A stretch of 42,700 nucleotides of DNA from a bacterium (GCA_027451105.1 DAIDKB010000033.1:1-42700); one strand, 5' to 3'. Shown: positions 397 to 15,808, counted from the stretch's first letter. Notes: generated from the sequence alone by a model not told the origin. A program made the numbers and translations.

Positions 397-410
397 ACAT
401 GCGGTACGGA

Positions 411-450
411 ACACCGGTCACTCTCTAACGAGGTGACCGGTGTTTTCTTT
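411..450 (+). terminator. Rho-independent terminator of the G+C-rich gene
   Basis: A perfect 10-bp stem (ACACCGGTCA at 411-420 with TGACCGGTGT at 434-443) is followed by TTTTCTTT. It lies 15 nt after the stop of the preceding gene. Confidence 0.9.
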
Positions 451-491
451 TACGCATACGCTAATACCGCCCAATGAGTTAATATGGCAAT

Positions 492-1058
492 ATGAAGGTA
501 TCTTCACTAAAGCGAAGTATCACCTATAGCCAAATCTGTTTTTGGTTAACCATGGCTCTGTGTGTTGCACTCGCGCCCGACAGCCTCAGCGCAAATTCGG
601 GCATAAGCTACTTTGGTCACCACATACTAACAATAATACCCTTTGAAGTTGGCGTATTTGCCACCGCCTATTTCCTACTAGGCGCCACAAAGGCAATTGG
701 AGCCAATCAACAGTTACGTTTTCTAGTCTGGTGCCTGTGGTTAATGATAGTTGGCGTAATCGGCATCGCCATAATGCCAGCAATCGGCGACGGTCTGCTA
801 GACCATCTACACCGACTGTTTGGTATCCTAACCTTTGTCACTCAGCTTGTTTTATCGGCTTGGCTGATAGTTAATTTTAGGAATAATGTAACTAGTTGGT
901 TGATTTACTGCTTACAAATCTTGGGCGGCATCATAGCCCTGATCTACCTTCAACCAGTCAAAGGCTTTTCGATTGAGGGGCAATTGCTATTTCAGTTGGC
1001 ATTTAGTGTGATTATGGGCCGGGCTTTGTTGAGAATGGCGGACAATATCACGGCTTAG
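492..1058 (+). CDS. Polytopic membrane protein (DUF998-like)
   Basis: A 188-residue, very hydrophobic protein with about six membrane segments separated by short loops. The spacing and the short polar N-terminus (MKVSSLKRSITYSQ) resemble DUF998-type integral membrane proteins, but no catalytic motif is present, so the family call is tentative. The ATG at 492 has no clear Shine-Dalgarno sequence; an AT-rich stretch (GTTAATATGGCAAT) lies directly before it. The gene is alone and converges on the minus-strand gene at 1086-1427. A TTGGCTGAT string inside it is a chance match to the att core found further right. Confidence 0.65.
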   Translation: MKVSSLKRSITYSQICFWLTMALCVALAPDSLSANSGISYFGHHILTIIPFEVGVFATAYFLLGATKAIGANQQLRFLVWCLWLMIVGVIGIAIMPAIGDGLLDHLHRLFGILTFVTQLVLSAWLIVNFRNNVTSWLIYCLQILGGIIALIYLQPVKGFSIEGQLLFQLAFSVIMGRALLRMADNITA

Positions 1059-1085
1059 ATGAAGCGCGTGTAAGTTTTTTAGAAA

Positions 1086-1427
1086 TTAAAAGGTCCAATT
1101 ACACCAATTCAAGCCGCCATATGCAACGTTGTATAAGAAAAACTCGTAGCAAAAAATAATAAATACATATAAAACAGCAAAGAACAAGACGAACAACTTA
1201 TTCTTATTAGAAAATGCCACGCCAAGTGCAACGGCAATAGTCGACAGCAAACCTAATATTATTGACCCCATACCCGGATTGGTGCTCCTCGGACATACAT
1301 TGCGTTGAGCCTGCCCAAGGCTATAGCTTACGATAACATTCACAATTTCAAAAATTATAGCAAGAGCAAATAATGTAATTGCCAGCCTACTAAACTGTAC
1401 TTTCTTTTTTGCTTTTACCATAAACAT
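1086..1427 (-). CDS. Small membrane protein, unknown
   Basis: A 113-residue protein with a basic N-terminus (MFMVKAKKKVQF) and three to four predicted membrane segments; one Cys-Pro-Arg loop follows the first segment. No family is recognised. On the minus strand it is the first gene after att-like repeat A (1439-1483), whose terminator hairpin separates it from genes further right. Confidence 0.55.
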   Translation of the reverse strand: MFMVKAKKKVQFSRLAITLFALAIIFEIVNVIVSYSLGQAQRNVCPRSTNPGMGSIILGLLSTIAVALGVAFSNKNKLFVLFFAVLYVFIIFCYEFFLYNVAYGGLNWCNWTF

Positions 1428-1438
1428 ATAATAACAAG

Positions 1439-1483
1439 AATAGACCTATAAAGGTCTATTTAGCATAATTATTTTGGCTGAAC
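1439..1483 (-). repeat. att-like repeat A with terminator hairpin (decayed core)
   Basis: An 8-bp stem (AATAGACC 1439-1446 / GGTCTATT 1453-1460) is followed by TTAGCATAATTATT and the core TTGGCTG at 1474-1480, where the usual GG is replaced by AA. The left arm is nearly identical to that of repeat E, apart from the missing second A of TTTAAGC. Read on the minus strand it is a tRNA-3'-end-like CAGCCAA, then a spacer, then a Rho-independent terminator. Confidence 0.75.
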
Positions 1484-1595
1484 TTGTGGGTCTGGTATTT
1501 TTTAAACTTTAGAACAAGACAAATAAAGCATCTTCCAATGTATTATCAAAATGTCTTGACCAAAATACTGAAGTAGCCTCAATACAACATTAGAG

Positions 1596-1976
1596 CTAGT
1601 TATGTAGTCTGAGGTTTGCTAGGTAATAATAGAGCCGGTACTTCTGGTGAGGTGCAGTGACAAAGAAACTTCCCTCCATCTCATCATTGTCCAGGACTTC
1701 AATAGTCTCTCCACTGTTATTGTACGGTTTAACGAGATTAATAAACTCAAACCCATATTGTCCAGAAATATTTTTTAATTCTATGCTTTGGTGCTGAGGG
1801 TTTGCGTAGTCCGTAATCACTAAGGCTATGAAATCTTCAGTATTTTTAATATAAATGTTAAAAATGGTATCAGGGACCAATGGAATAGGTGATGTAAGGC
1901 GCCTTACGAATGTTGCGTCAGAGATTACAGGAAATGCCTCTATTGCTACTTGGGGAATATCCTCATTATTTTTCAT
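1596..1976 (-). CDS. Hypothetical cassette protein
   Basis: A 126-residue soluble protein with no signal or membrane segment. It appears beta-rich (SIELKNISGQYGFEFINLV) and has an acidic stretch (EVLDNDEMEGSFF). I chose the ATG at 1976 (MKNNEDIP); the longer frame to 2063 would begin inside the region just upstream of the divergent Nudix gene and reads like non-coding sequence. It lies in the unit between cores A and B, facing away from the Nudix gene. Family not recognised. Confidence 0.55.
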   Translation of the reverse strand: MKNNEDIPQVAIEAFPVISDATFVRRLTSPIPLVPDTIFNIYIKNTEDFIALVITDYANPQHQSIELKNISGQYGFEFINLVKPYNNSGETIEVLDNDEMEGSFFVTAPHQKYRLYYYLANLRLHN

Positions 1977-2097
1977 ACTTAATCTATTGTACCAAATAAA
2001 AAGCAGACAGTTTGAAGACACGTCCAGGTCTGTGTGGCTCCTAGGAGCCGCTAAGGTGGTCATAAGCCAAGTAGTGTTCGAGTGATATTATAAAGGT

Positions 2098-2586
2098 ATG
2101 AATATTTTAGCGACTATTGGTCAAGTAGATACATCAATACGATACACGGATCGACCAACCGTGAAGGTTGTAATTAAAAAAGATAATCAACTTTTAATCC
2201 TCAATAAAGGCTTATTACCTGGCGGCGGAATCGAACCAGGCGAATCAGATCACGATGCAATTACCCGAGAGCTGCAAGAAGAACTAGGCTTCACTGTAAA
2301 AAATATTCAAACAATCGGAACGATTGTGCAGTATCGCAACCTACTCGACAAAAAATACCTCATTAACGGATATACCGCAACGCTTGATACTACATGGGAA
2401 GTAACCAACCCGCAGGACGAAGGCGAGGCCCAGTTTACTATACAATGGCTTGCTCTCGAGGAAGCTACGGCGTATGTCTCGGAGTCGATCGAGGAGGCGA
2501 AGCTTAAGCCAATGGACAATGATGCCAATCAAGGTCAACTCTATAATTTTATGACCACATACGATTTTCTAAAGAGACTCGGTTAG
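2098..2586 (+). CDS. Nudix hydrolase
   Basis: A 162-residue protein with a full Nudix box GGIEPGE-x7-RELQEELGF at about residues 43-65, which binds the metal and hydrolyses nucleoside-diphosphate-linked substrates. The exact substrate cannot be read from the sequence; housecleaning of damaged nucleotides is one option. The start is ATG 2098. A TATTAT hexamer ends 6 nt before it, with AAAGG between, so it is either leaderless or has a very short leader. It is divergent from 1596-1976 and occupies the A-B unit of the cassette region. Confidence 0.85.
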   Translation: MNILATIGQVDTSIRYTDRPTVKVVIKKDNQLLILNKGLLPGGGIEPGESDHDAITRELQEELGFTVKNIQTIGTIVQYRNLLDKKYLINGYTATLDTTWEVTNPQDEGEAQFTIQWLALEEATAYVSESIEEAKLKPMDNDANQGQLYNFMTTYDFLKRLG

Positions 2587-2734
2587 TAATTTAAATCAAG
2601 CTCAATCGTCCCAGGCTGACCTAGAATTTTAACTTAAATCCATATTTAAAATATAGGTAGCTAGGCTTGTCAAAATGATTATCGTCTACCGAAGACAGGC
2701 TTCCGTTAATTGTTTTAATACCTAGCTCTTTAGC

Positions 2735-2783
2735 AAAATGAGACCCATATGGGTCTCATTTTAAAGTGTCGCATTTGGCTGGG
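2735..2783 (-). repeat. att-like repeat B with terminator hairpin
   Basis: A near-perfect palindromic hairpin, AAAATGAGACCC / GGGTCTCATTTT (2735-2762), is followed by a short spacer and the core TTGGCTGGG at 2775-2783. Right of the core the sequence ATGGAGGGAT matches the T-arm side of a tRNA 3' end (compare GCGGAGGGATTCGAA in tRNA-Gln). Confidence 0.8.
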
Positions 2784-2929
2784 ATGGAGGGATATCGCAA
2801 GCGAGCTTGCTCCTCCGCTTGTTTGCAAAATGAGCAAGCTAATTTTGCTGCTCGGCACTACGCCGAACCGCCCGAATCTTTTGCTGCGCAAAAGCCATTA
2901 GAGAGTTCGGATCCCAACCAACTCGGTCA
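2784..2929. other. Gene-less structured unit between cores B and C
   Basis: About 150 nt with no credible gene. It contains several short hairpins: GCAAGC-GA-GCTTGC near 2800, CTTTTGC-TGC-GCAAAAG at 2878-2894, and others. On the minus strand TGGGATC near its right end can pair with CATCCCA next to core B, so the whole unit may close like a tRNA acceptor stem with a G-CCA end. The plus-strand frame across it (from about 2766) looks like spurious translation of repeat DNA. Confidence 0.5.
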
Positions 2930-2994
2930 AATTAAAATAACGACCACACGGGTCGTTGTTTTAATTTGGCTGGGGCTAGTGGATGTGTTTCAGG
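2930..2994 (-). repeat. att-like repeat C with terminator hairpin
   Basis: The hairpin AACGACC (2939-2945) / GGTCGTT (2951-2957) is extended by flanking AATTAAAA/TTTTAATT. The core TTGGCTGGG is at 2966-2974, followed by GCTAGTGGATGTGTTTCAGG, which is shared with repeat D apart from one base. The stop codon of the metallopeptidase gene lies just to the right. Confidence 0.85.
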
Positions 2995-2999
2995 AAGAG

Positions 3000-3629
3000 T
3001 TATTCAAACCTAGCGAGTATTTCAGCAGCCGACATACTATTTAGCTCAATTACATTAAGTCCTGTTTTACGTATTACATTCTCAACTATCCACGTTCCTA
3101 CCTTGTAGGTTTTCCAGGCTTCCTTAGTGTCAGGATCGTAGAAAGCCCACTTTCGCCATGTCTCTCCACTTGATTCAAAATACTGATCTGCGGTGATAGT
3201 TTTTATTTCTTCAAGCCAGGCATGTAGTGTTTCTACACTATGCTGCGAGTAATCAGCCCACCTTGGACTAGAGTTCGCGTGCTCTCTCTCAAATATAGTT
3301 GCACATCCTTCGTAAATGGCAGCCTCTATCGCCGAACATGGCTCTGAGTTGTAGAAGCCTTGACCGATATGATATCCTTCGTGAAATATGACCGGTTTAA
3401 TTCTGATAAACTGACTGGTTCTGTCTTCTTGGTCTATCCGAGTGCCTATTTTCATCGAGTCACTAGATAGTGCGCTGCCGGTTATTCCATCTTCTCCATA
3501 AGGATAGTTTGTACCAAAAGAGATATTAATTGTTTCGGGAAGATTCGGTAATAGAGTTTTTAAGCTATCATACGCTTCGACAATTTTCGGCAAGAACAAG
3601 GAATTAACTTCTTTATTTTCAAAGCTCAT
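3000..3629 (-). CDS. Putative zinc metallopeptidase (DUF2268-like)
   Basis: A 209-residue protein with a zincin-type motif HEGYH at residues 83-87 (two zinc-binding His and the catalytic Glu) and a candidate third ligand, Glu107 in AAIYEGCA, 20 residues later. This is the arrangement of gluzincin-like DUF2268 proteins. There is no signal peptide or membrane segment, so it would act in the cytoplasm or leave without a classical signal. Its TAA stop is 25 nt from core C and its terminator is the repeat C hairpin. It is the only gene between cores C and D, as expected for a one-gene cassette. Confidence 0.7.
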   Translation of the reverse strand: MSFENKEVNSLFLPKIVEAYDSLKTLLPNLPETINISFGTNYPYGEDGITGSALSSDSMKIGTRIDQEDRTSQFIRIKPVIFHEGYHIGQGFYNSEPCSAIEAAIYEGCATIFEREHANSSPRWADYSQHSVETLHAWLEEIKTITADQYFESSGETWRKWAFYDPDTKEAWKTYKVGTWIVENVIRKTGLNVIELNSMSAAEILARFE

Positions 3630-3702
3630 TACATTAATGGATTCTTCGGCCGTTGATTATAACTCATTAAACATTCTAGTTGTATTTTAACGTACTAAAC
3701 AA

Positions 3703-3770
3703 AAAATGACGATTTCTCGTCATTTTAAGCATAATCATCTTGGCTGGGACTAGTGGATGTGTTTCAGGAC
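3703..3770 (-). repeat. att-like repeat D with terminator hairpin
   Basis: A perfect 10-bp stem AAAATGACGA (3703-3712) / TCGTCATTTT (3717-3726), then AAGCATAATCATC, the core TTGGCTGGG at 3740-3748 and the arm ACTAGTGGATGTGTTTCAGG. The TCA at 3764-3766 inside the arm is the stop codon (TGA on the minus strand) of the neighbouring gene, so the gene ends inside the repeat. Confidence 0.9.
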
Positions 3771-4195
3771 GAAATCGGCAGTATCGCGTACATTGGGGCC
3801 CCAGGCAGCACTTCTCTGAACCCTGATTTAGCTTCGTGGATATTCTTATTTTCAGACAGATTGATCCACGGGTCCATCCACATATCATTGTGACGTATTA
3901 AGTAGTGGCCAACTGGGTGGTCCTTAGATATTCCTATGAGGACGATTACGCCTTCTTGGTCTATCAGTGGTCTCACGTGGGGTTTGACATATTTCCGTTC
4001 GTAAGCCAAGCCAGCATCATTTAGGGCTTTCATTAAATCATTAACCCAAAACCTTTCGCTATGGGCCTGTTTTTCGCCGAGTCGTTTTTCAGCATCTTTA
4101 TAGGTGACACCGAGTGCAAACGCATAGCAAGCGACTCCGCACCCATAATCAAATTCTTGTGTAATACTTTTTCTCATATCGTCAGTGTAGGCCAT
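3764..4195 (-). CDS. C39-like papain-fold peptidase, single-gene cassette
   Basis: A 143-residue protein with EFDYGCGVAC (candidate catalytic Cys19), then His97 in HPVGHYLI and Asp108 in MDPWIN. This Cys-His-Asp order is that of C39-type/bacteriocin-processing cysteine peptidases. There is no transporter domain, so it is not a full C39 exporter. I chose ATG 4195 (MAYTDD); the frame extends to 4351 but would run through the terminator hairpin of repeat E and across the element border. It fills the D-E unit, with its stop in repeat D and a terminator on each side. No SD sequence is obvious, so translation may be leaderless. Confidence 0.65.
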   Translation of the reverse strand: MAYTDDMRKSITQEFDYGCGVACYAFALGVTYKDAEKRLGEKQAHSERFWVNDLMKALNDAGLAYERKYVKPHVRPLIDQEGVIVLIGISKDHPVGHYLIRHNDMWMDPWINLSENKNIHEAKSGFREVLPGAPMYAILPISS

Positions 4196-4216
4196 ATATT
4201 TATATATACAAGCAAA

Positions 4217-4262
4217 AAAGACTTCTACTAGGAAGTCTTTAAGCATAATTATTTTGGCTGGG
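4217..4262 (-). repeat. att-like repeat E: left attachment site (attL) with terminator
   Basis: The stem AAAGACTTC (4217-4225) / GAAGTCTTT (4232-4240) is followed by AAGCATAATTATT and the core TTGGCTGGG at 4254-4262. The sequence right of the core is the severed 3' end of the recombinase gene. Joining the left arm of E to the tRNA-Gln side of the core at 9481-9489 gives tRNA-Gln followed after 14 nt by this terminator, a sensible empty attB. Confidence 0.9.
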
Positions 4263-4432
4263 AAAATGTTAGTCAATTTGAACCAATACCTACTAATATA
4301 GAACAGACCACATTTGCTGAGGTTATGAATGGCTTGCGTAAATTTGGGCAACTACTGAATGACCTAGTTAGCGGCAATAATGCAAATATTATAAAATACA
4401 GATATCAACAGGGGGTAATTTATGATTTATGA
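4262..4432 (+). pseudogene. Severed native C-terminus of the serine recombinase (56 codons)
   Basis: An open frame begins at core E (GGC TGG GAA AAT = G-W-E-N) and ends with TGA at 4430-4432. It reads like real protein (VSQFEPIPTNIEQ, LRKFGQLLNDLVSGNNAN) but has no start codon of its own at the left. The Gly-Trp codons in core E are in the same frame as the Gly-Trp codons of the recombinase in core 9481-9489. Joining the two ends, as in the excised circle, continues the recombinase from Trp524 into these 56 codons to make a 580-residue protein. The stop overlaps the start of the next gene (ATG 4422), a coupled arrangement that makes sense only in the circle. Confidence 0.85.
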
Positions 4433-4766
4433 TAAGGCGTTAGTGTTAAGTAAGCAAAAAGCGATGATGAAAAGTATTACTGACTTGCTGGATGTATTGA
4501 GCGATATAGAAATAGGTGATGGTGGTAACAGTGGGGAGATAGTGCTAGATGATGGTTCGGTTATGACCTTAAGTGCTGCCGCCAACAAAGAAAGTAACCT
4601 CTTAAATGTTGAAAAAGTATCAGTAACCAACGCAAGATTGAACCTAGATATATTAATAAGTAAGACAATGCCTAGCGTTTTGAGCCAAGATGATAGTGTA
4701 ATAAGACTTGTAAAAAAGAAATCTAGCAGTGATGACAAGATTATATTTGTAAAGAAGAAGCCATAG
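4422..4766 (+). CDS. Hypothetical protein translationally coupled to the recombinase end
   Basis: A 114-residue soluble protein with a helical N-terminus (KALVLSKQKAMMKSITDLLDVLSDI), a Gly/Asp-rich middle and a basic C-terminus (RLVKKKSSSDDK, FVKKKP). The ribosome binding site CAGGGGG lies 9 nt before ATG 4422, inside the recombinase tail. In the circular form it would be co-transcribed with the recombinase; in the integrated form shown here it has lost that promoter. An accessory role in recombination (such as a directionality factor) is possible from position alone. No family is recognised. Confidence 0.65.
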   Translation: MIYDKALVLSKQKAMMKSITDLLDVLSDIEIGDGGNSGEIVLDDGSVMTLSAAANKESNLLNVEKVSVTNARLNLDILISKTMPSVLSQDDSVIRLVKKKSSSDDKIIFVKKKP

Positions 4767-4781
4767 TCTAACGAGTAGCTA

Positions 4782-5483
4782 TTAAGCTTTTTTCTGCTTA
4801 GCCTTTTTATCTCTGTATTGAGTTCGCTTAACCTTTATAGCGTATCGCACCATCGTTGCTAGCTCACCTAACCTCATTATGCCGAGCTTTAGCCAATTAA
4901 GCATACTGAGTCTTTGTGGTGAAGATACTATGTATGCACTACTGTCCTCAATCCTTATTTTTGTTATGTAACGCTGTCCAGCGAGATCAGAAAATCTTAT
5001 AGCAAATGTCAGGGGTCTTTGCTTTTTTGAGAACATTGTAAACTTCGTAAGCCCAAATGGATCGGTCACGCCCTTAATAGTTGCCTGCAATACCCTCCTG
5101 TCGCCATGCCTTAAAATCGGCATCTTCAGGAATAGAATTTTTGTAAGCCCGTATAGATTAAACTGCCCATCAGCCCACCAGTTATAGAAGCTATCTACCT
5201 TAACATTGATGGCAATACCACTGCCAGAATTCTCTACGATCACCTCATCTTTGCTATGGTCGTAGGAGAGAGTTATCAGAGGTAGAGAGCTTAACATATT
5301 TGCTCTCGCACTCTCTCTCGCAGCTCTCAAGGAGGCATAGAGTGTGAGTAAAACAATCAAAAAAGTTAGAGCACCAAGCAAGTCAATGAGAGGCAGCCCA
5401 AATATATCTATCTGTCTTTGATTATCATATACCTTAAAAACTGTGGCAAATGAGGAGCTCATCAAACCAATAACATAACTCAT
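4782..5483 (-). CDS. Single-pass membrane protein with beta-rich domain
   Basis: A 233-residue protein. One strong membrane segment lies at about residues 30-50 (DLLGALTFLIVLLTLYASL), followed by a soluble domain with VENSGSGIAINVKV, a motif typical of Ig-like domains in uncharacterised membrane-anchored proteins, and a very basic C-terminus. A TATAAT hexamer (plus strand ATTATA 5491-5496) ends 7 nt before the ATG, so the mRNA may be leaderless. It is divergent from the HTH gene. Function unknown. Confidence 0.6.
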   Translation of the reverse strand: MSYVIGLMSSSFATVFKVYDNQRQIDIFGLPLIDLLGALTFLIVLLTLYASLRAARESARANMLSSLPLITLSYDHSKDEVIVENSGSGIAINVKVDSFYNWWADGQFNLYGLTKILFLKMPILRHGDRRVLQATIKGVTDPFGLTKFTMFSKKQRPLTFAIRFSDLAGQRYITKIRIEDSSAYIVSSPQRLSMLNWLKLGIMRLGELATMVRYAIKVKRTQYRDKKAKQKKA

Positions 5484-5565
5484 ACTTATGATTATAGTCT
5501 ACGACCATAAGATATTGGCGAATATGAACTTATCAGCTGGTAGAGTAAGCGTTACAATAAAGCTT

Positions 5566-5991
5566 ATGAGCGGGAATGAAAAATCAATTAAGCCTCTGAC
5601 TGCCAGAATTGGCCGTCCTCGCACTATTACCGAGGGTGACACTTACGAACTTATCCGCCTATTTCAAAACGGGTTCTCCGTTTCTGTTGCCTGTACTAAA
5701 ACTGGTATTCCTCGGTCTGTTTACTATGCCGAAATGGAGCGAAATGAGGAGTTTCGGGACAAGATAACAGCCGCAAAAGATGTCATGACTACACGGGCGA
5801 CACGAATTATTGATGACAGCTTACGGAGACGCAATCTTAAAACGGCTATGTGGTGGCTAGATCGCCAAGACAGGCGTGAGCGAAATGCTCAGCGAGCCAA
5901 AGAATATCGGCTCGTAAAGAAGCTTACCCTCACAAAGACCTATCAGGAAAAGCACTCTCTTGAAATTGAACTTGATACTGTAACGGATTAA
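5566..5991 (+). CDS. HTH protein, terminase-small-subunit-like
   Basis: A protein of 141 residues from ATG 5566 (MSGNEKSIK). GRPRTITEGD leads into a helix-turn-helix (LIRLFQNGFSVSVACTKTG, IPRSVYYAEMER), then a helical basic region (RRRNLKTAMWWLDRQDRRER). This layout resembles the phage-type homeodomain/terminase small subunit fold and related DNA-binding accessory proteins. An earlier ATG at 5488 would leave only 4 bp to the divergent gene, so I prefer 5566, although its SD is weak. It may be the element's regulator or directionality factor (inference). Its stop overlaps the convergent gene by 4 nt. Confidence 0.65.
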   Translation: MSGNEKSIKPLTARIGRPRTITEGDTYELIRLFQNGFSVSVACTKTGIPRSVYYAEMERNEEFRDKITAAKDVMTTRATRIIDDSLRRRNLKTAMWWLDRQDRRERNAQRAKEYRLVKKLTLTKTYQEKHSLEIELDTVTD

Positions 5992-6569
5992 GATTTACTC
6001 TTTTTGACCGACCAAGGTGGTGCCCAATCAAACTTTTCGTACACCTTATCAATTGGCAGCGTAACTGCATCGGCATTACCGTCCTTATAAAGATCATCTA
6101 TCCTCATACCAATTATCTGAGCTGGCGTTACCTTGGTATCCGCATAGCCCATATCTCTACGAGCTGCGAGGATAAATTCTACATAGAGCCGCAAGAAAAC
6201 GAGGGCTGTCGGTGGGCTAAAAGAAGCTTGACGGAAATTGTGAAATGCTTTTACAGCATCATCGGAGCCAAAGATGCTAATCCAAGTAATAAACTTTGAC
6301 ATCTTTGACTTAACATCTTCATTGTTAAGCAATTGCCCAGTAGTCCCCTTATCAATAGATTCCTGCAACATATCCAGCATCGGTTTATAGGTTTCGTATT
6401 TCTTTTCAGCTAACCTATTCTCTAGATCTCTTATGCGTGATGCTTGTGAGTCACTTCTCCTCGCTGATATTGCCGACACAGCTGCAATTATGGCAGCGAT
6501 TATAGTTGCAAACGCTGCAATGCCAGCAATAATTAAAGTTGTCTGCGTATCTGGTTGAACGGTAGCCAT
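5988..6569 (-). CDS. Membrane-anchored coiled-coil protein
   Basis: A 193-residue protein with an N-terminal membrane segment at about residues 11-35 (LIIAGIAAFATIIAAIIAAVSAI), then a charged coiled-coil (RIRDLENRLAEKKYETYKPML) and a helical cytoplasmic domain. No enzyme motif is seen. It is convergent with the HTH gene, with a 4-nt overlap. Such anchored proteins with an N-terminal segment and a globular tail are common in small mobile elements; a defence or exclusion role is only a guess. Confidence 0.6.
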   Translation of the reverse strand: MATVQPDTQTTLIIAGIAAFATIIAAIIAAVSAISARRSDSQASRIRDLENRLAEKKYETYKPMLDMLQESIDKGTTGQLLNNEDVKSKMSKFITWISIFGSDDAVKAFHNFRQASFSPPTALVFLRLYVEFILAARRDMGYADTKVTPAQIIGMRIDDLYKDGNADAVTLPIDKVYEKFDWAPPWSVKKSKS

Positions 6570-6846
6570 ATCTAGATTTTAGCAGATAAGTATAGGTCGT
6601 CTTAAAATCTAGCTACGGTGTTATAATCAGAACAACGCTAACAAGCGTAAAAACAATTCGGTATGGCCTAAACTTAGTAGCTTCGGCGAAAGGCATGGTC
6701 GTAAATCCATATACAACAAACAGCCTGTCGTTAGGTTCACTGTTGTATATGGTCATATCGGGAAACTGGTATGGGTGGCGAAAGTCATCGCTTAGCGGCA
6801 GGCTTTTTGGTTGCCGCTCATAACCAGCCGAGAGGAGCGGCACAAC
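6570..6846 (+). other. Non-coding stretch with a long stem-loop before the 6847 operon
   Basis: There is no credible ORF. A perfect 12-bp inverted repeat, CCATATACAACA (6707-6718) / TGTTGTATATGG (6741-6752), encloses a 22-nt loop. AGCCTG near 6723 can also pair with CAGGCT near 6800, which is followed by TTTTT. A TATAAT hexamer near 6621 could serve as a -10 box. This could be a structured leader controlling the downstream genes; no known riboswitch is recognised. Confidence 0.45.
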
Positions 6847-7362
6847 ATGCAAAAAATAATCTCTTGGGTCAAGAAACACAAGATATGGTCAGTTCTAATC
6901 GTTATGGCTATTGGTGGCTTTACCCTTATGGGTACAGCCAGCCCTAGTACACCATCAACAGATACGACCCAGAAATCTGCAAGCCAACAATCAACTACGC
7001 AGCCAGCACAGGAGCCCAAACTCACCTACACGGTTAATGAAGATAAAAACACTTATGTAAGTGTGCTTATTCCAGCCAGCTACGATAACGCTGAGACCAT
7101 GAAGCAGCTTGGTAGTACTCTTAAGCAAGCTTACGACACTTCAGACCGCTCGCATGTTTTTGTTTATGTCTTTGACGACAAGACGGCAGCAGACCTACTT
7201 GAGACAGTACTTTCTGGCAAAGATACGACTGCTCAGGACGCGACTTACGACCCTCACCTAGTTGCCGAGTACCAGAAGAATGCTCCAACTAATTTCAACC
7301 AGTTCACCATTCAGATACATGGTGGCGTTAATGATAATAACCCAACAACCATTAAGTATTAG
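6847..7362 (+). CDS. Membrane-anchored protein with Thr/Ser/Gln-rich linker
   Basis: A protein of 171 residues from ATG 6847 (MQKIISWVKK), chosen because GAGGAG lies 9 nt upstream; the longer frame from 6811 lacks a ribosome binding site. A single N-terminal membrane segment (SVLIVMAIGGFTLMGTA) is followed by a low-complexity linker and an extracellular alpha/beta domain with no recognised motif. It lies 9 nt upstream of the SHOCT-domain gene, so the two form an operon. Confidence 0.65.
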   Translation: MQKIISWVKKHKIWSVLIVMAIGGFTLMGTASPSTPSTDTTQKSASQQSTTQPAQEPKLTYTVNEDKNTYVSVLIPASYDNAETMKQLGSTLKQAYDTSDRSHVFVYVFDDKTAADLLETVLSGKDTTAQDATYDPHLVAEYQKNAPTNFNQFTIQIHGGVNDNNPTTIKY

Positions 7363-7371
7363 GAGCTACAG

Positions 7372-7827
7372 ATGAACAAAGAATACAAAGGAGTAAACGG
7401 TACGCTTATCATTAACGATACGGGCATTGTCATTCACCGAGGAGCAAAAGGAGCAATCTTTGGTACAGCTAGCCAAAGAGGTGATAAGTCTATATCCTAT
7501 AATATGATTTCTGCTGTACAGCTTCAGTCAGGTGGCTTAATACAACGACAAGGCTATATCCGCTTCTCGTTCCTGGGTGGTGCTGAAAGTAAAAACCTTA
7601 CTCGGTATGGTATCGCAAAAGACGAAAACAGTATCCTATTTGCCACTTCAAAGAACAAAGAGTTTGAAGAAGCAAAGCAGCTTGTTGAGAGCCGAATGGG
7701 CACAACACCACAATCTAACGGCCAAAGTAGCCTAGATGAGCTGGAGAAGCTGGGTAAACTCAAGGAGCAAGGTCTTATATCGCAAGAAGAGTTTGATGCT
7801 AAAAAGAAGCAACTACTCGGTTTGTAG
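7372..7827 (+). CDS. DUF4429-like protein with C-terminal SHOCT domain
   Basis: A 151-residue protein. The N-terminal half is beta-rich (GVNGTLIINDTGIVIHRG, YIRFSFLGGAES), similar to PH-like DUF4429 domains. Residues about 118-151 carry the SHOCT motif (LDELEKLGKLKEQGLISQEE followed by FDAKKKQLLGL), a short domain that often mediates oligomerisation. An SD (AGGAGC) lies before ATG 7372. Its partner is the membrane protein encoded 9 nt upstream. Confidence 0.75.
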   Translation: MNKEYKGVNGTLIINDTGIVIHRGAKGAIFGTASQRGDKSISYNMISAVQLQSGGLIQRQGYIRFSFLGGAESKNLTRYGIAKDENSILFATSKNKEFEEAKQLVESRMGTTPQSNGQSSLDELEKLGKLKEQGLISQEEFDAKKKQLLGL

Positions 7828-7916
7828 CGGATATTAAATCGCAAGAGTTCAATAAACGACATATATAATCGCTAATCTGCTAAAATTAAGCTATAGAATA
7901 ATCTTTATAGCAAAAT

Positions 7917-9590
7917 ATGAACTCTGATACTAACGAAGCAATAAACAAGCCACGAACAGCGTATAGATACGCCATATACGCTCGTAAAAGCACCGAGGGT
8001 TTGGAGCGACAGTACCGCTCAATAAGCGACCAAATAGATGACTGCTTGGTGATTGCCAAACGAGACAACTTGAAGGTTATCGGCAAGCCAATAGAAGAAC
8101 GCAAATCCGCCAAAATAGCCAAAAAGCGACCATTATTCAAAGATCTCGTAAAGAAAATTAAGAGCGGTGAATTAGATGGCATTATTGCGTGGCATCCTGA
8201 TCGCTTGGCTCGTAATATGGCAGAAGCAAGCATCATTTTAGATATGCTCAACACGGGCACATTAAAAGACTTGCGGTTTTATTCTCACCCATTTTCAAAT
8301 GACCCTGCTGGGCGAATGATGTTGGGTATGATGTTTGTACTGGCAACGCATTACTCAGACGAATTATCACAAAAGGCTACCCGGGGCGTAAGAAAAAAGT
8401 TTGGGGAGGGCGGTCTTGGTGGCTACCCGAGGTTAGGCTACATTCAAGAAAAAGGCTATTACAAGATAGATATGGAAAATAATAATTTTGGGCTTATCCA
8501 AGAAGCGTGGCAAATGCGAGCCAGAGGTGCTAAACACGAAGAAATTATTGAATATCTAAACACCAACAACTTTTCACAAATAGTAAAAGGTGAACGAAAA
8601 ATAAGGATAATAAAAACTAATGACCTAACTAGAATGTTTAGTGGCAAACATAGCAGTTTTTATTATGGCGTAGCGGCTCAAGCAGACGGCACTGTAGATT
8701 TGCGTGAGCTACTACCTGATTTTGTGCCATTAACAGATGAGGCGACCTACGCAAAAGTTCAGGCGGTAAATTACAAGCGAAAGCGTGGCAGTGGCAAAAA
8801 ATTAGAGTATTTCTTACCCTTTAGGGACATCTTGTTTTGTGAGACTTGCCAAGATGTGCGACCACTGATTATTTATCGGTCTAAGAGTAGAAGTGGTAAG
8901 TACTATATCTATACAAAGTGTAAAAATGCCAACTGCTCTCGCAAACCAAAAGATGTTAGGGCTATTGTAGTGTCTGACGCTGTTAGTAGAGTGCTTCAAG
9001 AAGTGTCATCTAAGCTGACAGAAGACGCGTATAAGAATTATTTAGCTGAAACAAAGGAATTGTCAGCCACACGCAAACAAGCACTCAGGGGCGAGAATAT
9101 AAGCCTACAAGCCCATATAACAAGGCTAAGAGAGGAAAATAAAGATTTTGGCAAGCAGTTAGTGGAAATAAAAGACGAAAAAATGAAAGAAGAAATACAG
9201 ATTGCTATATCTGAAAACATGCGAGTAATTGCAAGCCAAACAGTCAAGATTGAAGCTAACAAACAAAAATTTGAAAAAGTGTCAGTACCAGCCTTCACAA
9301 TAGAAGAGTTTAATACATTGGTTCAAACTATGGCTGAAAGGTTCAACAATGGCACGATGGTTCAAAGAGACATAATTATACGCAATGTGTTTTTGAACCT
9401 TTATTTTGATGGCACAAAAATAGCGAATTACTCTTTAGCAGAGCCATTCGCTACTTTGTTACAATCCGAAAAATTATCTCTTGGCTGGGGCGGAGGGATT
9501 CGAACCCCCGAATGTCGGCACCAAAAGCCGATGCCTTACCACTTGGCGACGCCCCAGTATAAATTTATATGTACAGTACTTTTGTATTAG
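7917..9590 (+). CDS. Large serine recombinase, integrated form with foreign C-terminus
   Basis: A 557-residue site-specific recombinase. The resolvase-type catalytic domain is at about residues 17-165, with nucleophile Ser25 in YARKSTEGL and WHPDRLARN. The recombinase domain follows, then a zinc ribbon (FCETCQ and KCKNANC, about residues 303-343) and a coiled-coil (about 385-450), the classic large-serine-integrase order. From residue 525 the frame crosses the att core and reads the antisense strand of tRNA-Gln (GGGIRTPECRHQ) to a chance stop at 9590, so the last 33 residues are not native. The native tail is at 4262-4432. No clear SD precedes ATG 7917. Confidence 0.92.
   Translation: MNSDTNEAINKPRTAYRYAIYARKSTEGLERQYRSISDQIDDCLVIAKRDNLKVIGKPIEERKSAKIAKKRPLFKDLVKKIKSGELDGIIAWHPDRLARNMAEASIILDMLNTGTLKDLRFYSHPFSNDPAGRMMLGMMFVLATHYSDELSQKATRGVRKKFGEGGLGGYPRLGYIQEKGYYKIDMENNNFGLIQEAWQMRARGAKHEEIIEYLNTNNFSQIVKGERKIRIIKTNDLTRMFSGKHSSFYYGVAAQADGTVDLRELLPDFVPLTDEATYAKVQAVNYKRKRGSGKKLEYFLPFRDILFCETCQDVRPLIIYRSKSRSGKYYIYTKCKNANCSRKPKDVRAIVVSDAVSRVLQEVSSKLTEDAYKNYLAETKELSATRKQALRGENISLQAHITRLREENKDFGKQLVEIKDEKMKEEIQIAISENMRVIASQTVKIEANKQKFEKVSVPAFTIEEFNTLVQTMAERFNNGTMVQRDIIIRNVFLNLYFDGTKIANYSLAEPFATLLQSEKLSLGWGGGIRTPECRHQKPMPYHLATPQYKFICTVLLY
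9481..9489. repeat. Right attachment core (attR) in the tRNA-Gln 3' end
   Basis: TTGGCTGGG is identical to the core at 4254-4262. On the minus strand it is CCCAGCCAA: the last acceptor bases, discriminator G, CCA and one A. Crossover anywhere in it leaves the tRNA intact. Confidence 0.9.
9482..9556 (-). tRNA. tRNA-Gln (TTG)
   Basis: A complete cloverleaf: acceptor TGGGGCG/CGCCCCA, discriminator G and encoded CCA; anticodon stem TCGGC/GCCGA around the loop TTTTGGT, giving anticodon TTG; T-arm GGTTCGAATCC. Its 3' end is the integration site of the recombinase element. The recombinase gene overlaps it fully on the other strand, and the terminator that should follow it is now 5.2 kb away at repeat E. 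Confidence 0.95.
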
Positions 9591-9640
9591 CTGATGCAGC
9601 TTTTGATGCCGCGGCACGATTACCATTACTTGCCCTGCGG

Positions 9641-9679
9641 ACAAAGGCCGATGTTTTACCGCTTGGCGGCAGCCCAGTA
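9641..9679 (-). pseudogene. Relic of the 5' half of tRNA-Gln
   Basis: The segment matches the intact tRNA-Gln from the anticodon loop (CAAA) through the D-arm and 5' acceptor to the flank CAGTA, with scattered substitutions (for example GCCGATGTTTTACCGCTTGG against GCCGATGCCTTACCACTTGG). The 3' half is not recognisable. It lies 85 nt upstream of the intact gene and may be a decayed tandem copy or a trace of an older integration. Confidence 0.6.
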
Positions 9680-9749
9680 AGTACTAAAAGTACTAGGCAA
9701 TTGTACACTAAACCGACCTTCAGCTCAAGAGAGGTCTGCGGATACGGCC

Positions 9750-10286
9750 TTAACGCTTGGCAACCAGCTTTACCCTACCGGCTTTTACAAAATACGATCG
9801 AATTTCAAACAAGAAGTAGGCAGCTATCGTAAGGAAAATAACTCCAAAAAGCACGCCAAAGACAAATCCAAAAAATGTAAAGCTAAAGACTGCATTCAAA
9901 AACACCTGAATTGCGCCAAGCACCAAAGTCATAAACAAGATATCCCAACCCTGTCTTAGGCGCTCCTTAAGTGGCGTTGCTGCCTTTGCATACAAAACAG
10001 TCACAGTGGAAAGATATATCAGACCTACGAGTATTGTAAGTAGCCAACCAGCTGGGTAATGTACGACTGTATAAACATCCAGATAGCCAGGCGCGTTGTT
10101 AATGTAGGTGATGTAGTCAAGCAGTCGGCCCAGCATAACAAGTGCGGAAATTGCCGATATAAACGACGCCAGAACAGCCAACCACCAAGCATTATCAGTT
10201 AACCATCTACGAAAAACATCTGGCAAATGTGGAAATGGCCTTAGCCAGCGTTCAGTTAAAGACTCCAGTTGTCGAACACGATTCAT
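9750..10286 (-). CDS. Polytopic membrane protein, unknown
   Basis: A 178-residue protein from ATG 10286 (MNRVRQLESL), preceded at 7 nt by AGGAG; the frame extends to 10310 but the SD decides the start. It has about four membrane segments and a short amphipathic N-terminus (LTERWLRPFPHLPDVFRRW). It is downstream of and close to the membrane protein at 10339-10815, so the two may be an operon. No family recognised. Confidence 0.6.
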   Translation of the reverse strand: MNRVRQLESLTERWLRPFPHLPDVFRRWLTDNAWWLAVLASFISAISALVMLGRLLDYITYINNAPGYLDVYTVVHYPAGWLLTILVGLIYLSTVTVLYAKAATPLKERLRQGWDILFMTLVLGAIQVFLNAVFSFTFFGFVFGVLFGVIFLTIAAYFLFEIRSYFVKAGRVKLVAKR

Positions 10287-10338
10287 AAACGACTCCTTTT
10301 TATAGCTCAATCATACTCTTAAGCCAGCCCGACAACAA

Positions 10339-10815
10339 CTATTTTCGAGTTTTAATGGGCCACATACTCCAGCTTGACCAACCGGCCAAGATAGCAAGAC
10401 CCAGACTGACTAAAACTGCCCACCAACCAGGCGCTAGCTTTATAACCGTGCCCAGTAACCCAATATTATCAAGTACATTAGTGCTCAGCGCCAGCCATAA
10501 ACTAATAAACATCCAAATACCAGCAACCAACCAGCTACACAACATACTAAAGAACCGCATCGCTAAACTGACGCGGACTCGTAGCAAGAACGGCAGCGCA
10601 AAGACCTCAACAATCACCAGCAATGCTACTAAAAAGTGCGAAAAACCGACACCGCCCGGTAGCCAAAAGCTATCAAATAAGTCCGGCATCTTGTCGAAAC
10701 TAAATAATTGCGCGACGGCAAAGACCGTAATAATTGCCGCGTAGGCTACTCCAATCAGTGGTGCGTCTTTTGTTCTTGGCGAAATTGGTGACGAAGCTTT
10801 TGGTAATATACTCAT
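10339..10815 (-). CDS. Four-segment membrane protein, unknown
   Basis: A 158-residue hydrophobic protein with four membrane segments and a polar N-terminus (MSILPKASSPISPRTKD). There is no SD; a promoter -10 box ends exactly 6 nt before the ATG, so the transcript is probably leaderless. It is followed by 9750-10286 on the same strand. Function unknown. Confidence 0.6.
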   Translation of the reverse strand: MSILPKASSPISPRTKDAPLIGVAYAAIITVFAVAQLFSFDKMPDLFDSFWLPGGVGFSHFLVALLVIVEVFALPFLLRVRVSLAMRFFSMLCSWLVAGIWMFISLWLALSTNVLDNIGLLGTVIKLAPGWWAVLVSLGLAILAGWSSWSMWPIKTRK

Positions 10816-10821
10816 GCTAAA

Positions 10822-10850
10822 AGTATAGACTTATGTCAATTTAGGCGCAA
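10822..10850 (-). promoter_or_regulatory. Promoter of 10339-10815, leaderless type
   Basis: On the minus strand TTGCGC (10845-10850), a 17-nt spacer and TATACT (10822-10827), then 6 nt to the ATG at 10815. The same TTGCGC-N17-TATACT pair occurs upstream of the WhiB gene. Confidence 0.65.
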
Positions 10851-10990
10851 ATGTTGTTATTTTTATTAATCCGCTTGCGCTTTGCTGCGCTTTCAACTAC
10901 AGTAACAACAAGCGAAAGTTACATAAAACAAACATAACTCCAAAAAAACATATGTTGTGACTGATCGCTCTACGATATCCACCACAACAA

Positions 10991-11017
10991 AAGAAATGAC
11001 CCTGCCATGTGCGGGGT
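10991..11017 (-). terminator. Terminator after trmD
   Basis: The stem ACCCCGC / GCAGGGT (11011-11017 and 10999-11005 in plus coordinates, one mismatch) is followed on the minus strand by CATTTCTTTT. The hairpin begins within the trmD stop codon. Confidence 0.7.
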
Positions 11018-11676
11018 TATTTTTCTGATTTCAATGAGTTTTCGGCACGCCATTTGGCAATTAATGCGTGATTACCGCTGAGTAAAACCTCGGGTACCTT
11101 CATACCGCGAAAGTCTTCTGGACGAGTATACTGAGGAAATTCTAGGGTTTCACCGTCGCTAAAGCTTTCAATTGCAGCGCTATTCTCACCGCCAAGCACA
11201 CCCGGGATTAAACGAACAACGCTATCGATAATTGTCATAGCCGCCAATTCGCCACCAGTTAGCACATAATCACCGATACTGACCTGCTCATCAACTAATT
11301 GCATGATACGCTCGTCGTAGCCCTCGTAGCGGCCACAGATAAAGATATAGTTATCGCCACCATCAGCCCACTCCTGGGCAATCGCCTGCTTCCAACGGCG
11401 CCCACGTGGTGTCATAATCACCACCTTAGCGGTTGGATCGTATACTTTGGCGTCTTCAACGGCCGCAAACAGCGGTTCGGGCATTAAAAGCATACCATCG
11501 CCACCACCATATGGCGTATCGTCAACCTGTCGACGCGGACCAAGCCCAAAATCACGCAGGTTAATCATCCTAAATTCAACCAAGCCCTGGTTTTGGGCTT
11601 TCCACATCATCGAGTTATTCAAAACACCGCTGAACATCTCGGGAAATAATGTTATTACTTGAATTTTTCTCATCAT
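11017..11676 (-). CDS. trmD: tRNA (guanine-N1)-methyltransferase TrmD
   Basis: Methylates G37 next to the anticodon with S-adenosylmethionine, which prevents +1 frameshifting. The N-terminus IQVITLFPEMFSGVLN, the SAM-binding trefoil-knot residues (GRYEGYDERI, IGDYVLTGGELA) and the C-terminal PQYTRPEDFRG are all typical, and the length of about 220 residues is usual. The family starts at MRK/MK before IQVITLFPEMF, so ATG 11676 or 11673 is preferred over the longer frame to 11694. In many bacteria it sits behind rpsP, khpA and rimM; here rpsP and khpA are upstream but rimM is not in between. Confidence 0.95.
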   Translation of the reverse strand: MMRKIQVITLFPEMFSGVLNNSMMWKAQNQGLVEFRMINLRDFGLGPRRQVDDTPYGGGDGMLLMPEPLFAAVEDAKVYDPTAKVVIMTPRGRRWKQAIAQEWADGGDNYIFICGRYEGYDERIMQLVDEQVSIGDYVLTGGELAAMTIIDSVVRLIPGVLGGENSAAIESFSDGETLEFPQYTRPEDFRGMKVPEVLLSGNHALIAKWRAENSLKSEK

Positions 11677-11814
11677 TACCAGTTTAGCCGACATTGATTT
11701 ATTTGTCTATAAATTATATAGTATAAAATTTATTTTGAGGTTCATGTTGACGCGCTGGCTGGCAGCCGATAATATCAGAAGTGTTCATCCGTCAGCCCAC
11801 GGTGCGAGGTTATC

Positions 11815-11961
11815 ATGACATTTGATGCAATCACCCGAAGCCTTACCAAGCAAGAAGCCGACGAGCAAGCCGTCCGCGTTGCCGCTAGCCGCGGAGACGT
11901 CATGGCCTGCGGGATCGTGTCGCTCAGTGACGATGACCAGCATGGCATCGAGTCTGATTGA
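11815..11961 (+). CDS. Small G+C-rich ORF (48 residues)
   Basis: ATG 11815 to TGA 11961 encodes an acidic 48-residue peptide (TFDAITRSLTKQEADEQAVR near the start). Codons are strongly G/C-ending, like the other G+C-rich genes of the window and unlike trmD and khpA beside it. GCGAGG lies 7 nt upstream as a possible SD, and a good terminator lies 83 nt downstream. It is on the opposite strand to the surrounding operon. Unrecognised and possibly not translated, but the composition and signals favour a real gene. Confidence 0.45.
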   Translation: MTFDAITRSLTKQEADEQAVRVAASRGDVMACGIVSLSDDDQHGIESD

Positions 11962-12043
11962 CTCTGCATATGCATTACCGCCTCGCCCGAGACGGGCCAC
12001 ATCTGTGGCGAAATCGGGCAACCCCATGCTTATATTTTTAACC

Positions 12044-12074
12044 AATAAAAAAACACCCATTCAGGTGTTTTTTT
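12044..12074. terminator. Bidirectional terminator between the small ORF and khpA
   Basis: AAAAAAACACC / GGTGTTTTTTT around a CATTCA loop, with A- and T-tracts on both sides. It can end both the plus-strand small ORF and the minus-strand khpA transcript. Confidence 0.85.
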
Positions 12075-12159
12075 ACACATATAAAGCTCTCAACATTTAT
12101 GTTGCTCGCATGAGCTATTTCTCGCAGTTAAAAGTTATTTACTTTGTAACTGAGACTAA

Positions 12160-12552
12160 TTATATATCTAGGTCGTCCAGTTCCGCAAGCTCTTCTCTGG
12201 TCTTTTTTGAGTAATCACTAGCGTTATCCACAGTCTCATCTGTAGAGTTTTTCACAGGCTCGTCACTACTGTCATCTGATGACATAGTATAGTTTTCACG
12301 GTCATCGTCATTATTGACGATTTTAAGGTTATAACGAGCATCGTTTTTAGTGCCAAGTGCGCGAAGCAGGGTGCGCAGGCTTTGAGCAGTTACGCCGCGT
12401 TTGCCAATAACCCGTCCAAGGTCCTCGGGGTTAACAGTCAGTGATAGCAGCACTCCCTTTTCATCAATAATTCTTTCTACAACTACATCGTCTGGGTGTC
12501 CAACTAAAGACTTAACGATATATTCTACAAACTGTTGATCTATTGTCGACAT
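12160..12552 (-). CDS. khpA: KH-domain RNA-binding protein KhpA with acidic tail
   Basis: A 130-residue protein. Residues 1-75 form a single KH domain with the GxxG loop in GRVIGKRGVTAQSLRTLL, as in KhpA, which binds RNA with KhpB and affects cell elongation and ribosome biogenesis. The last 50 residues are a Ser/Asp/Glu-rich tail longer than in most KhpA proteins. ATG 12552 (MSTIDQQF) is preceded by GGAGGG; the frame to 12576 would start upstream of that SD. It follows rpsP, with a terminator between. Confidence 0.85.
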   Translation of the reverse strand: MSTIDQQFVEYIVKSLVGHPDDVVVERIIDEKGVLLSLTVNPEDLGRVIGKRGVTAQSLRTLLRALGTKNDARYNLKIVNNDDDRENYTMSSDDSSDEPVKNSTDETVDNASDYSKKTREELAELDDLDI

Positions 12553-12633
12553 AATACCCTCCATGTCTACGGTCACTACTTACTAATATCGTAATACTAT
12601 TGTACCATGACGCGCTAATGCTTGCCCAACACA

Positions 12634-12666
12634 TAAAAAATACCCCTCGCCATGAGGGGTATTTAA
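12634..12666 (-). terminator. Terminator between rpsP and khpA
   Basis: The stem AAATACCCCTC / GAGGGGTATTT with loop ATGGC (minus strand) is followed by TTTTT. It separates rpsP from khpA, which then needs its own promoter or read-through. Confidence 0.85.
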
Positions 12667-12683
12667 AATCAATAGATAGATAT

Positions 12684-13055
12684 TTAGTTTTCGGTTTCGG
12701 CAACTGGCTCTTCGGCAGCAACTTCTTCGACAACTTCTTCTTTTGGCTGGTTCTTACGAAGTTTTTCAGCGTGGCGAATAGATTTCGTCTTGACGTCGGC
12801 CTTTTTAACCCAGTCAGGTAGTTTAACACCTGCAGCTTCAAGCAATTTAGCAACACGAGGAGTTGGCTGTGCACCGTTTCCAAGGTACTTTTCGGCAAGC
12901 TCGTTTTGAACAACGGCTTCTTTGGTGTGTGGGTTATAGCTACCGATGTAAGCGACAACACGACCACTTGATGGGTGACGTTGAGCTTCCTGAACAGCTA
13001 GACGATAGGTTGCGTAGCCTTGTCGGCCAACGCGCTGCAGACGAATTGCAAGCAT
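12684..13055 (-). CDS. rpsP: 30S ribosomal protein bS16
   Basis: A 123-residue protein with the bS16 pattern MLAIRLQRVGRQGYATYRLA and VVAYIGSYNPHTKE. The core is about 80 residues; the remaining 40 form a Lys- then Glu/Ala-rich extension (EEVVEEVAAEEPVAETEN), common in CPR and actinobacterial S16. An SD (AAAGGA) lies upstream of ATG 13055. It is downstream of rnc on the same strand. Confidence 0.95.
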   Translation of the reverse strand: MLAIRLQRVGRQGYATYRLAVQEAQRHPSSGRVVAYIGSYNPHTKEAVVQNELAEKYLGNGAQPTPRVAKLLEAAGVKLPDWVKKADVKTKSIRHAEKLRKNQPKEEVVEEVAAEEPVAETEN

Positions 13056-13111
13056 AAAATTATGATTTCCTTTTACTTATCTATTAAATGATTTTTATGA
13101 CTTGTTCAAGT

Positions 13112-13852
13112 TTACACTGTTTTTGTGGTTTCGTCAATCTGTTTTGCGCGCTCGGCATAGTAATCCAAGGCGGCTTGAGCAGCTTGTTGTTGAGCAACTT
13201 GCTTGCTAGGACCACTTCCCTTACCCAAAAGGTTATCCTTAACATAAACTCCAAGTGTAAAAATCTTGTCGTGGTCAGGACCGACCTCTTCGATAACGCG
13301 GTATTGAGGCGTTTGGCCATCGATTCGCTGCGAGACCTCCTGCAGATGAGATTTAGCATCACGCCATGTACCAGCTTCTAGGATAGCCGGCAACTTGCTA
13401 ATGATATGTTTATGTATAAATTCCGAAGCATCACCATAGCCGCGCTCCAGATAAATAGCTCCAACAACCGCCTCAAAAGCATTCGCCAGTATCTGTTGAC
13501 GGGCCCTGTCACTACCTTGTTTTTCACCGCGGCTCATGCGAACCAGCGGCTCATAACCTAGCTTGAAACCAGCATCACCAATACTTTCAGTCCGTACCAA
13601 TGCGGCTCGCCAACTGGTCAAAATACCCTCTTGCTCACTATAATTTTTAAATAAATAGTCAGTCACCACCAACTCTAAAACAGCGTCACCTAAAAATTCC
13701 AGTCGTTCATTATGCTCGCTAACACTTTTACGGTGCTCGTTAACATAGCTGCGGTGCGTTAAGGCAGTAATTAGTAACTGAATATCATCAAATTCAAAGC
13801 CCAGTTTCTCACGAGCAAAATCTTGATAAGGTGCGGTTAGCATTCCTGTCAT
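13112..13852 (-). CDS. rnc: Ribonuclease III
   Basis: Cleaves double-stranded RNA during rRNA processing. The 246-residue protein has the catalytic signature ERLEFLGDAVLEL (about residues 48-60), the second acidic site near AFEAVVGAIYLERG, and a C-terminal dsRNA-binding domain (SHLQEVSQRIDGQTPQYRVI to AAQAALDYY). Its start overlaps the end of the Nudix gene by 4 nt (ATGA), giving translational coupling in the nusB-Nudix-rnc operon. Confidence 0.95.
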   Translation of the reverse strand: MTGMLTAPYQDFAREKLGFEFDDIQLLITALTHRSYVNEHRKSVSEHNERLEFLGDAVLELVVTDYLFKNYSEQEGILTSWRAALVRTESIGDAGFKLGYEPLVRMSRGEKQGSDRARQQILANAFEAVVGAIYLERGYGDASEFIHKHIISKLPAILEAGTWRDAKSHLQEVSQRIDGQTPQYRVIEEVGPDHDKIFTLGVYVKDNLLGKGSGPSKQVAQQQAAQAALDYYAERAKQIDETTKTV

Positions 13853-14782: not shown

Positions 14783-14833
14783 AACGTTTTAATTCTTTCT
14801 TTTATTTAGTGTTTTGTTAAGGTAATACTATAG

Positions 14834-14983
14834 CTATTTAGCTAGAGCTTTGCCAGTTTCGCGGCGAGTGGTGCGGGCTTTGACTGGTGATTTAGCGTTA
14901 ACGCGGCGAGCAAGCTCCAAACGTAAGTGACTTCGGCGCAAACCGGTCTTACGTGGGCTACTCTGCTTCTTTGGTTGTCCCAT
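14834..14983 (-). CDS. rpmF: 50S ribosomal protein bL32, zinc-free form
   Basis: A short gene of 49 codons: MGQPKKQSSPRKTGLRRSHL to ARTTRRETGKALAK. QPKK near the start and GLRRSH are the bL32 signature. The four cysteines of the zinc-binding form are absent, so this is the C-minus type. AAGGAG lies 6 nt before ATG 14983. It sits upstream of nusB on the same strand. Confidence 0.9.
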   Translation of the reverse strand: MGQPKKQSSPRKTGLRRSHLRLELARRVNAKSPVKARTTRRETGKALAK

Positions 14984-15126: not shown

Positions 15127-15149
15127 AAACCTCAATATAAACCGTAAAA

Positions 15150-15802: not shown

Positions 15803-15808
15803 ACAGAA

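Follow-up and report, generated by a model that had tools for sequence, protein, structure and literature searches.

A large serine integrase gene divided at tRNA-Gln, very probably by its own attachment site, in a patescibacterial element

In a 42,700-nt stretch of bacterial DNA (the window), a large serine recombinase gene is split between the two ends of an element inserted at the 3' end of a tRNA-Gln gene: the body of the gene runs into the antisense of the tRNA, and its last codons lie detached, in the matching frame, at the far end of the element. We consider it very likely that the element is integrative, and that its enzyme is a large serine integrase whose own gene holds attP in its 3' part and which reads the T-arm of the target tRNA. 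The features on which the argument rests are given below.

4210-4253, minus strand: displaced terminator-side flank of the distal junction, with the hairpin AGACTTCCTAGTAGAAGTCT and a U-run
4253-4432, plus strand: detached recombinase tail, FGWENVSQFEPIP...YDL, without start codon; dN/dS 0.37 against the tail of the related locus L013
4254-4262: core of the distal junction, a copy of TTGGCTGGG
4254-9489: full extent of the integrated element; the cores are 5,227 bp apart
4276-4284: attP-side motif for the zinc-ribbon domain, ATTTGAACC, 5 bp farther from the core than in attB; encodes F-E-P of the tail
4422-4766, plus strand: first element gene after the tail, kept next to the tail in L013 (68%)
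5488-5991, plus strand: small protein with weak similarity to terminase small subunits; homologues in the L012 and L013 elements
7917-9479, plus strand: body of the large serine recombinase gene, 521 codons up to the core; Pfam Resolvase, E=7.7e-23
9425-9464, minus strand: hairpin resembling an intrinsic terminator, with a U-run, antisense to the recombinase 3' end and now behind tRNA-Gln
9480-9590, plus strand: recombinase frame as read into antisense tRNA-Gln after integration, LGW and 33 residues, then stop
9481-9489: core of the tRNA-proximal junction, TTGGCTGGG, equal to the tRNA 3' end with CCA
9482-9556, minus strand: tRNA-Gln (TTG anticodon; ARAGORN), the integration target, left intact; empty homologue in genome G209
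9498-9506: attB-side motif for the zinc-ribbon domain, ATTCGAACC, antisense of the tRNA T-arm

The divided gene and its two junctions

The recombinase ORF, 7917-9590, encodes 557 aa and reads the core TTGGCTGGG at 9481-9489 as CTT GGC TGG (Leu-Gly-Trp) on its way into antisense tRNA-Gln. At the core copy 4254-4262, the matching frame reads TTT GGC TGG (Phe-Gly-Trp) and continues for 56 codons to a TGA at 4430-4432; it has an in-frame stop upstream of the core and no start codon, and its own stop overlaps the ATG (4422) of the next ORF. When both ends are joined a single frame of 580 aa results, and on the joined chromosome a terminator hairpin follows tRNA-Gln directly. The initial annotation had read both cores, the start-less tail and the products of joining in just this way, and reading the ORF, the tail frame and the joined sequence confirmed it on each point.

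Because the nine-base core occurs three further times in the window, the choice of 4254 as the partner needed testing. There are five exact copies of TTGGCTGGG (4254, 9481, 2775, 2966 and 3740) against 0.36 expected, plus a degenerate one at 1474, and only the copy at 4254 has both the tail and the shifted T-arm motif described below. The cores at 2775, 2966 and 3740, tried as alternative att ends of the element, were rejected, as they come without the tail and the +5 motif, and those at 2966 and 3740 belong to a separate cassette array. The earlier proposal that 4254 and 9481 form the true att pair had left the three further exact cores out of the pairing. About 2% of random positions in the window open a frame of 55-62 codons, and it is homology, rather than the chance of such an ORF length, that confirms at the level of sequence that the tail is a genuine part of the recombinase.

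On its distal side the element borders an array and not plain chromosome. One-gene units with shared ends occupy 2966-3740 and 3740-4254; a copy of the tRNA-Gln 3' end terminates each of them, and the array is separated from tRNA-Gln by the serine-integrase element. Integron-like arrays of this kind (window 2775-4253; L172 7072-12550; L173, L174, L175, L136 and L138) consist of short, mostly one-gene units directly behind tRNA-Gln that end in TCCTGAAACACATCCACTAGCCCCAGCC, whose last part equals the 3' end of tRNA-Gln. A terminator-like hairpin usually comes next, and the genes of the units include those of NUDIX, glyoxalase-like, AHSA1-like and Zn-protease-like proteins. Among 295 genomes of the order, 27 have the 25-bp array end, often as a series of sites on one strand, up to seven of them, behind tRNA-Gln. 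No serine recombinases of the split-gene family were present in the arrays looked at, and since the +5 motif, inspected by eye, is only partial at the cassette ends, the cassettes were not assigned to the split-gene serine integrase. A gene-less unit of 191 bp at 2775-2965 has the core followed by GGAGGGAT, which resembles the T-arm side of tRNA-Gln and is possibly a tRNA remnant. Positions 1-436 of the window have a G+C content of 62%, against about 41% in 437-9489, and may represent a chimeric contig end or recent foreign DNA.

The enzyme and its attachment sites

The window recombinase has the Resolvase-type catalytic domain of large serine integrases (PF00239, E=7.7e-23), and the Y-x-R-x-S and DRLxRN positions are invariant or nearly so across 24 relatives. 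The Recombinase (PF07508) and zinc-ribbon (PF13408) domains are present in relatives, and four Cys are invariant, the window protein included; in the Pfam search the window protein itself gave no match to PF07508. We modelled an uninterrupted relative from the genome G333 (see below), and the closest solved structures to this model are the integrase complexes of SPbeta, phiC31 and Bxb1; phmmer with the window protein found no solved structure, and a profile search did find some. Judged by its domains and by the solved structures closest to the modelled relative, the window protein is a large serine integrase. In the model, the canonical fold ends near residue 511, a coiled coil (helices 364-412 and 416-451) is embedded in the zinc-ribbon domain, and the core falls in the linker that follows, so that integration would strip off an add-on module and no canonical domain. 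The tail is predicted as two low-confidence helices, in a model whose overall confidence is low (pLDDT <50 for most of the tail, pTM 0.35).

The attachment sites point the same way. On the attB side the T-arm motif GAACC starts about 16-17 bp from the inferred centre, and on the tail side it lies exactly 5 bp farther out. At +5 the match to the T-arm motif averages 4.89 of 6; no other offset exceeds 2.44, and none of 2,000 random placements exceeds 2.67. An outward shift of the zinc-ribbon motif by 5 bp in attP relative to attB is the rule for serine integrases (PMC3783163), and the tRNA/tail side of the sites follows it. On the recombinase side of attP a motif in mirror image lies equally far out but is weak, and a search on the terminator side of attB brought no evident one. 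Crossover probably takes place at C74/base 73 of the tRNA-proximal core, a centre that we infer from the mirror positions of the motif. Read in this manner, the att architecture identifies the enzyme as a serine integrase. As TTTGAACC encodes the Phe-Glu-Pro of the tail, part of the apparent conservation of the tail is a constraint on the DNA.

Recurrence of the divided gene in relatives

For relatives of the recombinase, 380 genomes of the phylum (Patescibacteria) were searched and the 29 closest loci fetched; two close relatives were found by genome-wide scan. The L013 recombinase is 84% identical to that of the window and ends in another tRNA-Gln gene, with the anticodon CTG; its detached tail, which shares 71% identity with the window tail, is found 8 kb upstream, right after a tRNA-end core and in the matching frame. 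Between the window and L013, dN/dS is 0.096 for the body and 0.37 for the tail, the latter resting on 30 differences, which suggests some purifying selection on the tail, moderate and estimated from few changes. The window's own genome has a recombinase paralogue, 35% identical, that likewise ends in a tRNA, here tRNA-Leu. A second self-split element of the same genome (L014, G000:C37, 4974-11626) lies at tRNA-Leu (TAG), is about 6.6 kb long and has the tail FGTPEAKQLEPLEAISDWLL...EYKL; a further 22-nt fragment of tRNA-Leu is seen 185 bp past it.

The recombinase frame overlaps the 3' end of a tRNA or tmRNA in antisense in all 29 of the closest loci, with tRNAs for Gln, Leu, Pro, Met, Asp, Ala, Ile, Gly, Glu and His as targets and tmRNA once. 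More distant recombinases end in a tRNA in 14 of 20 cases, two of these loci using Ser and Asp. The tree of relatives indicates an old group with several changes of target, and many of the 380 genomes have more than one recombinase match. Tails in the main group are 37-58 residues long; a hydrophobic pattern recurs in them, and they share their C-terminal ending; family-wide the tail is poorly conserved, and its best-conserved residues coincide with the DNA motif. A second, distant serine recombinase group of the phylum (L194, L187 and L140-L159) also ends inside tRNAs, and has short tails of about 11-28 residues after the core.

Some of the tails had initially been chosen partly by an EP/EL motif that is itself encoded by the GAACC site; the DNA-only, strand and frame controls are independent of that choice. 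In a decoy test over the 29 loci with usable upstream DNA, in which a core copy had to open a 36-64-codon tail with the family motif, the true frame gave a tail in 18 loci, against 0-3 in the shifted frames and on the reverse strand. A criterion that ignored protein sequence and asked for at least 6 nt of the core with the T-arm hexamer at +5 bp gave 32 matches on the correct strand and 2 on the opposite one, with a match in 22 of the 29 loci; read in the matching frame, 25 of these 32 matches lead into 36 or more open codons, compared with 3 and 1 for the two other frames. The remaining 7 loci gave no tail by this DNA-only test, some of them lying on short contigs or having their tail possibly beyond 20 kb.

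Uninterrupted versions of the gene were also found. In G333 (L057, oriented 283-16470), a tandem array at tRNA-Pro holds three tail copies and two recombinases, and at its internal junction the recombinase frame passes without interruption through the core into the tail. The internal junction of a tandem array is attP-like, and the uninterrupted recombinase is probably chimeric. An intact gene, complete with a short tail and with the motif in position, is present on the viral contig L187, of the distant group, and in L194 a gene of this kind runs into tRNA sequence matching the tRNA-Asn of another locus. A single-protein scan of the viral contigs gave no match, and three family scans returned mostly other recombinases, with L187 and L194 as the only relevant ones; plasmid and phage collections gave only distant catalytic-domain matches. 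The presence of the tail in relatives had been set beforehand as a test of the proposal, and it came out in its favour: most relatives have the tail detached at the distal end of the element, and in G333 and L187 it is uninterrupted.

An empty site is seen in G209, a genome of the same genus, where a tRNA-Gln (TTG, 95% identical) in the same gene neighbourhood is followed by a terminator and then by a chromosomal gene; it is the only empty site found, and in a species other than that of the window. The initial annotation had made the lack of an empty tRNA-Gln joined to the repeat E terminator a further ground for refutation, and the proposal passed this test too: a terminator directly follows the empty site, though as a hairpin that occupies the place of repeat E and differs from it in sequence. 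An antisense intrinsic-terminator-like hairpin with a U-run, in the window GTAGCGAATGGCTCTGCTAAAGAGTAATTCGCTAT-TTTTGT, lies just behind the tRNA, within the final ~95 bp of the recombinase gene, at 17 of the 29 loci; of 397 control windows, 54 have one (P=1e-7). We regard self-splitting as the property of an old group of serine integrases, spread through the phylum, and not of this one element.

Proposed scheme, alternatives and known systems

The scheme that we favour can be laid out as a cycle. In the circular form the gene would be whole, its 580 residues comprising catalytic, recombinase, zinc-ribbon and coiled-coil parts and a C-terminal tail of ~56 residues. The enzyme would recombine attP with the tRNA-Gln 3' end, which serves as attB, probably by crossing over at C74/base 73 beside the CCA, with the zinc-ribbon domain most likely reading the GAACC of the T-arm, which attP would mimic 5 bp farther out in the first tail codons. 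Integration would leave the tRNA intact, sever the tail from the gene and let the enzyme end in a few antisense-tRNA residues, and in most relatives it would also place the antisense terminator from the last codons of the recombinase behind the tRNA. Excision would then restore the whole recombinase gene. For the effect of tail loss we see about an even chance of a reversible change of the C-terminus as in the phage Mx8 integrase, by analogy with which the tail-less enzyme would keep its canonical domains with altered activity or direction; that tail loss locks the element in place or switches direction is plausible. We put forward more tentatively, at slightly under even, the generalization that in Patescibacteria most large serine integrases read the T-arm, target tRNA/tmRNA 3' ends and carry attP in the gene, tail loss being a reversible switch and the gene end a terminator.

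Two other accounts accept the division of the gene and differ on the tail. Loss of the tail might inactivate the enzyme, the element then staying put until an incoming or tandem relative provides a whole enzyme in trans. The same logic has been published for archaeal suicidal integrases (PMC8371274), the whole gene is restored in tandem arrays such as that of G333, and many genomes have more than one recombinase match; yet every canonical serine-integrase domain survives the cut, and the conservation of the tail in elements that are integrated suggests that they often go back to being circles. We think this account somewhat unlikely. It could also be argued that attP lies in the 3' end of the gene only to provide a terminator and an att arm, the tail having no role in activity. 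That the 3' end combines codons, att arm and antisense terminator would fit such compaction, as would the poor family-wide conservation of the tail, with its conserved residues matching the DNA motif, and the short tails of the distant group. The main-group tails, at 37-58 residues with a hydrophobic pattern and a shared C-terminal ending, together with some purifying selection (dN/dS 0.37) and helices predicted at low confidence, speak against it and leave it, in our judgement, unlikely.

The remaining two accounts deny the self-splitting itself, and we give either of them hardly any credence. Short open frames are common (2% at random) and the core is repeated elsewhere in the window, so the tail could be imagined as a chance frame or another gene's remnant, and the run of the recombinase into tRNA-Gln as a decayed 3' end; the homologous detached tail in L013, the strand, frame and swap controls, and the contiguous gene of G333 refute this. 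Likewise, tRNA 3' ends are the classic target of tyrosine integrases (Islander), and one of these might have inserted the element with the serine recombinase as a passenger. Against this, the junction lies inside the serine recombinase gene in every relative, whichever tRNA is used, the +5 offset is a signature of serine-integrase att sites, and no tyrosine-integrase Pfam family had a match among the element genes searched.

If the favoured scheme holds, reading of the T-arm at a fixed offset would allow one enzyme family to move among many tRNA genes. It would explain why recombinases of these bacteria end in antisense tRNA (e.g., ...GRGDRIRTCD), and would mean that annotated or cloned versions of them are without their real C-terminus. 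The tail as a controller of the direction of serine integrases can now be tested directly, a matter of practical weight because these enzymes are tools of genome engineering.

In the well-studied large serine integrases, attP sits outside the gene; recombination of attP with attB runs one way, and excision calls for a directionality factor. The enzymes of A118/LI, SPbeta (YokA), phiC31 and Bxb1 share with that of the window the catalytic, recombinase, zinc-ribbon and coiled-coil parts and the 5-bp shift between attP and attB, but the phage enzymes are stated not to target tRNA genes (Islander 2014), and here a tail past the canonical end is cut off. The SSV-type integrases (SSV1, pTN3 and pT26-2) resemble the present case in having attP in the integrase gene, a tRNA target and a partitioned gene, clade-wide, but they are archaeal tyrosine recombinases and the cut separates their catalytic C-terminal part, whereas here just a C-terminal tail of a serine recombinase is lost (PMC8371274). 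Mx8 of Myxococcus xanthus is bacterial and, as described in PMC6070905, has attP within the integrase coding sequence and a new 3' end after integration; the integrase with the rewritten end is reported there to be active with changed specificity (Tojo 1996, Magrini 1999). By analogy, it would be the best functional precedent for tail loss. The C-terminus is rewritten here as in Mx8, but the enzyme here is a serine recombinase, whereas Mx8 is treated by Islander as a tyrosine integrase, is a single phage case with an unrelated protein, and has no 5-bp offset in its att sites. A text search of a partial literature library found no report of self-splitting serine integrases, and the design appears to be undescribed for them. 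Earlier accounts had it that serine integrases do not specify tRNA genes (Islander, 2014) and that self-splitting integrases occur only in archaea (PMC8371274, 2021), both with tyrosine enzymes in view and with the bacterial Mx8 overlooked; here a whole phylum has serine integrases that combine tRNA targeting with self-splitting.
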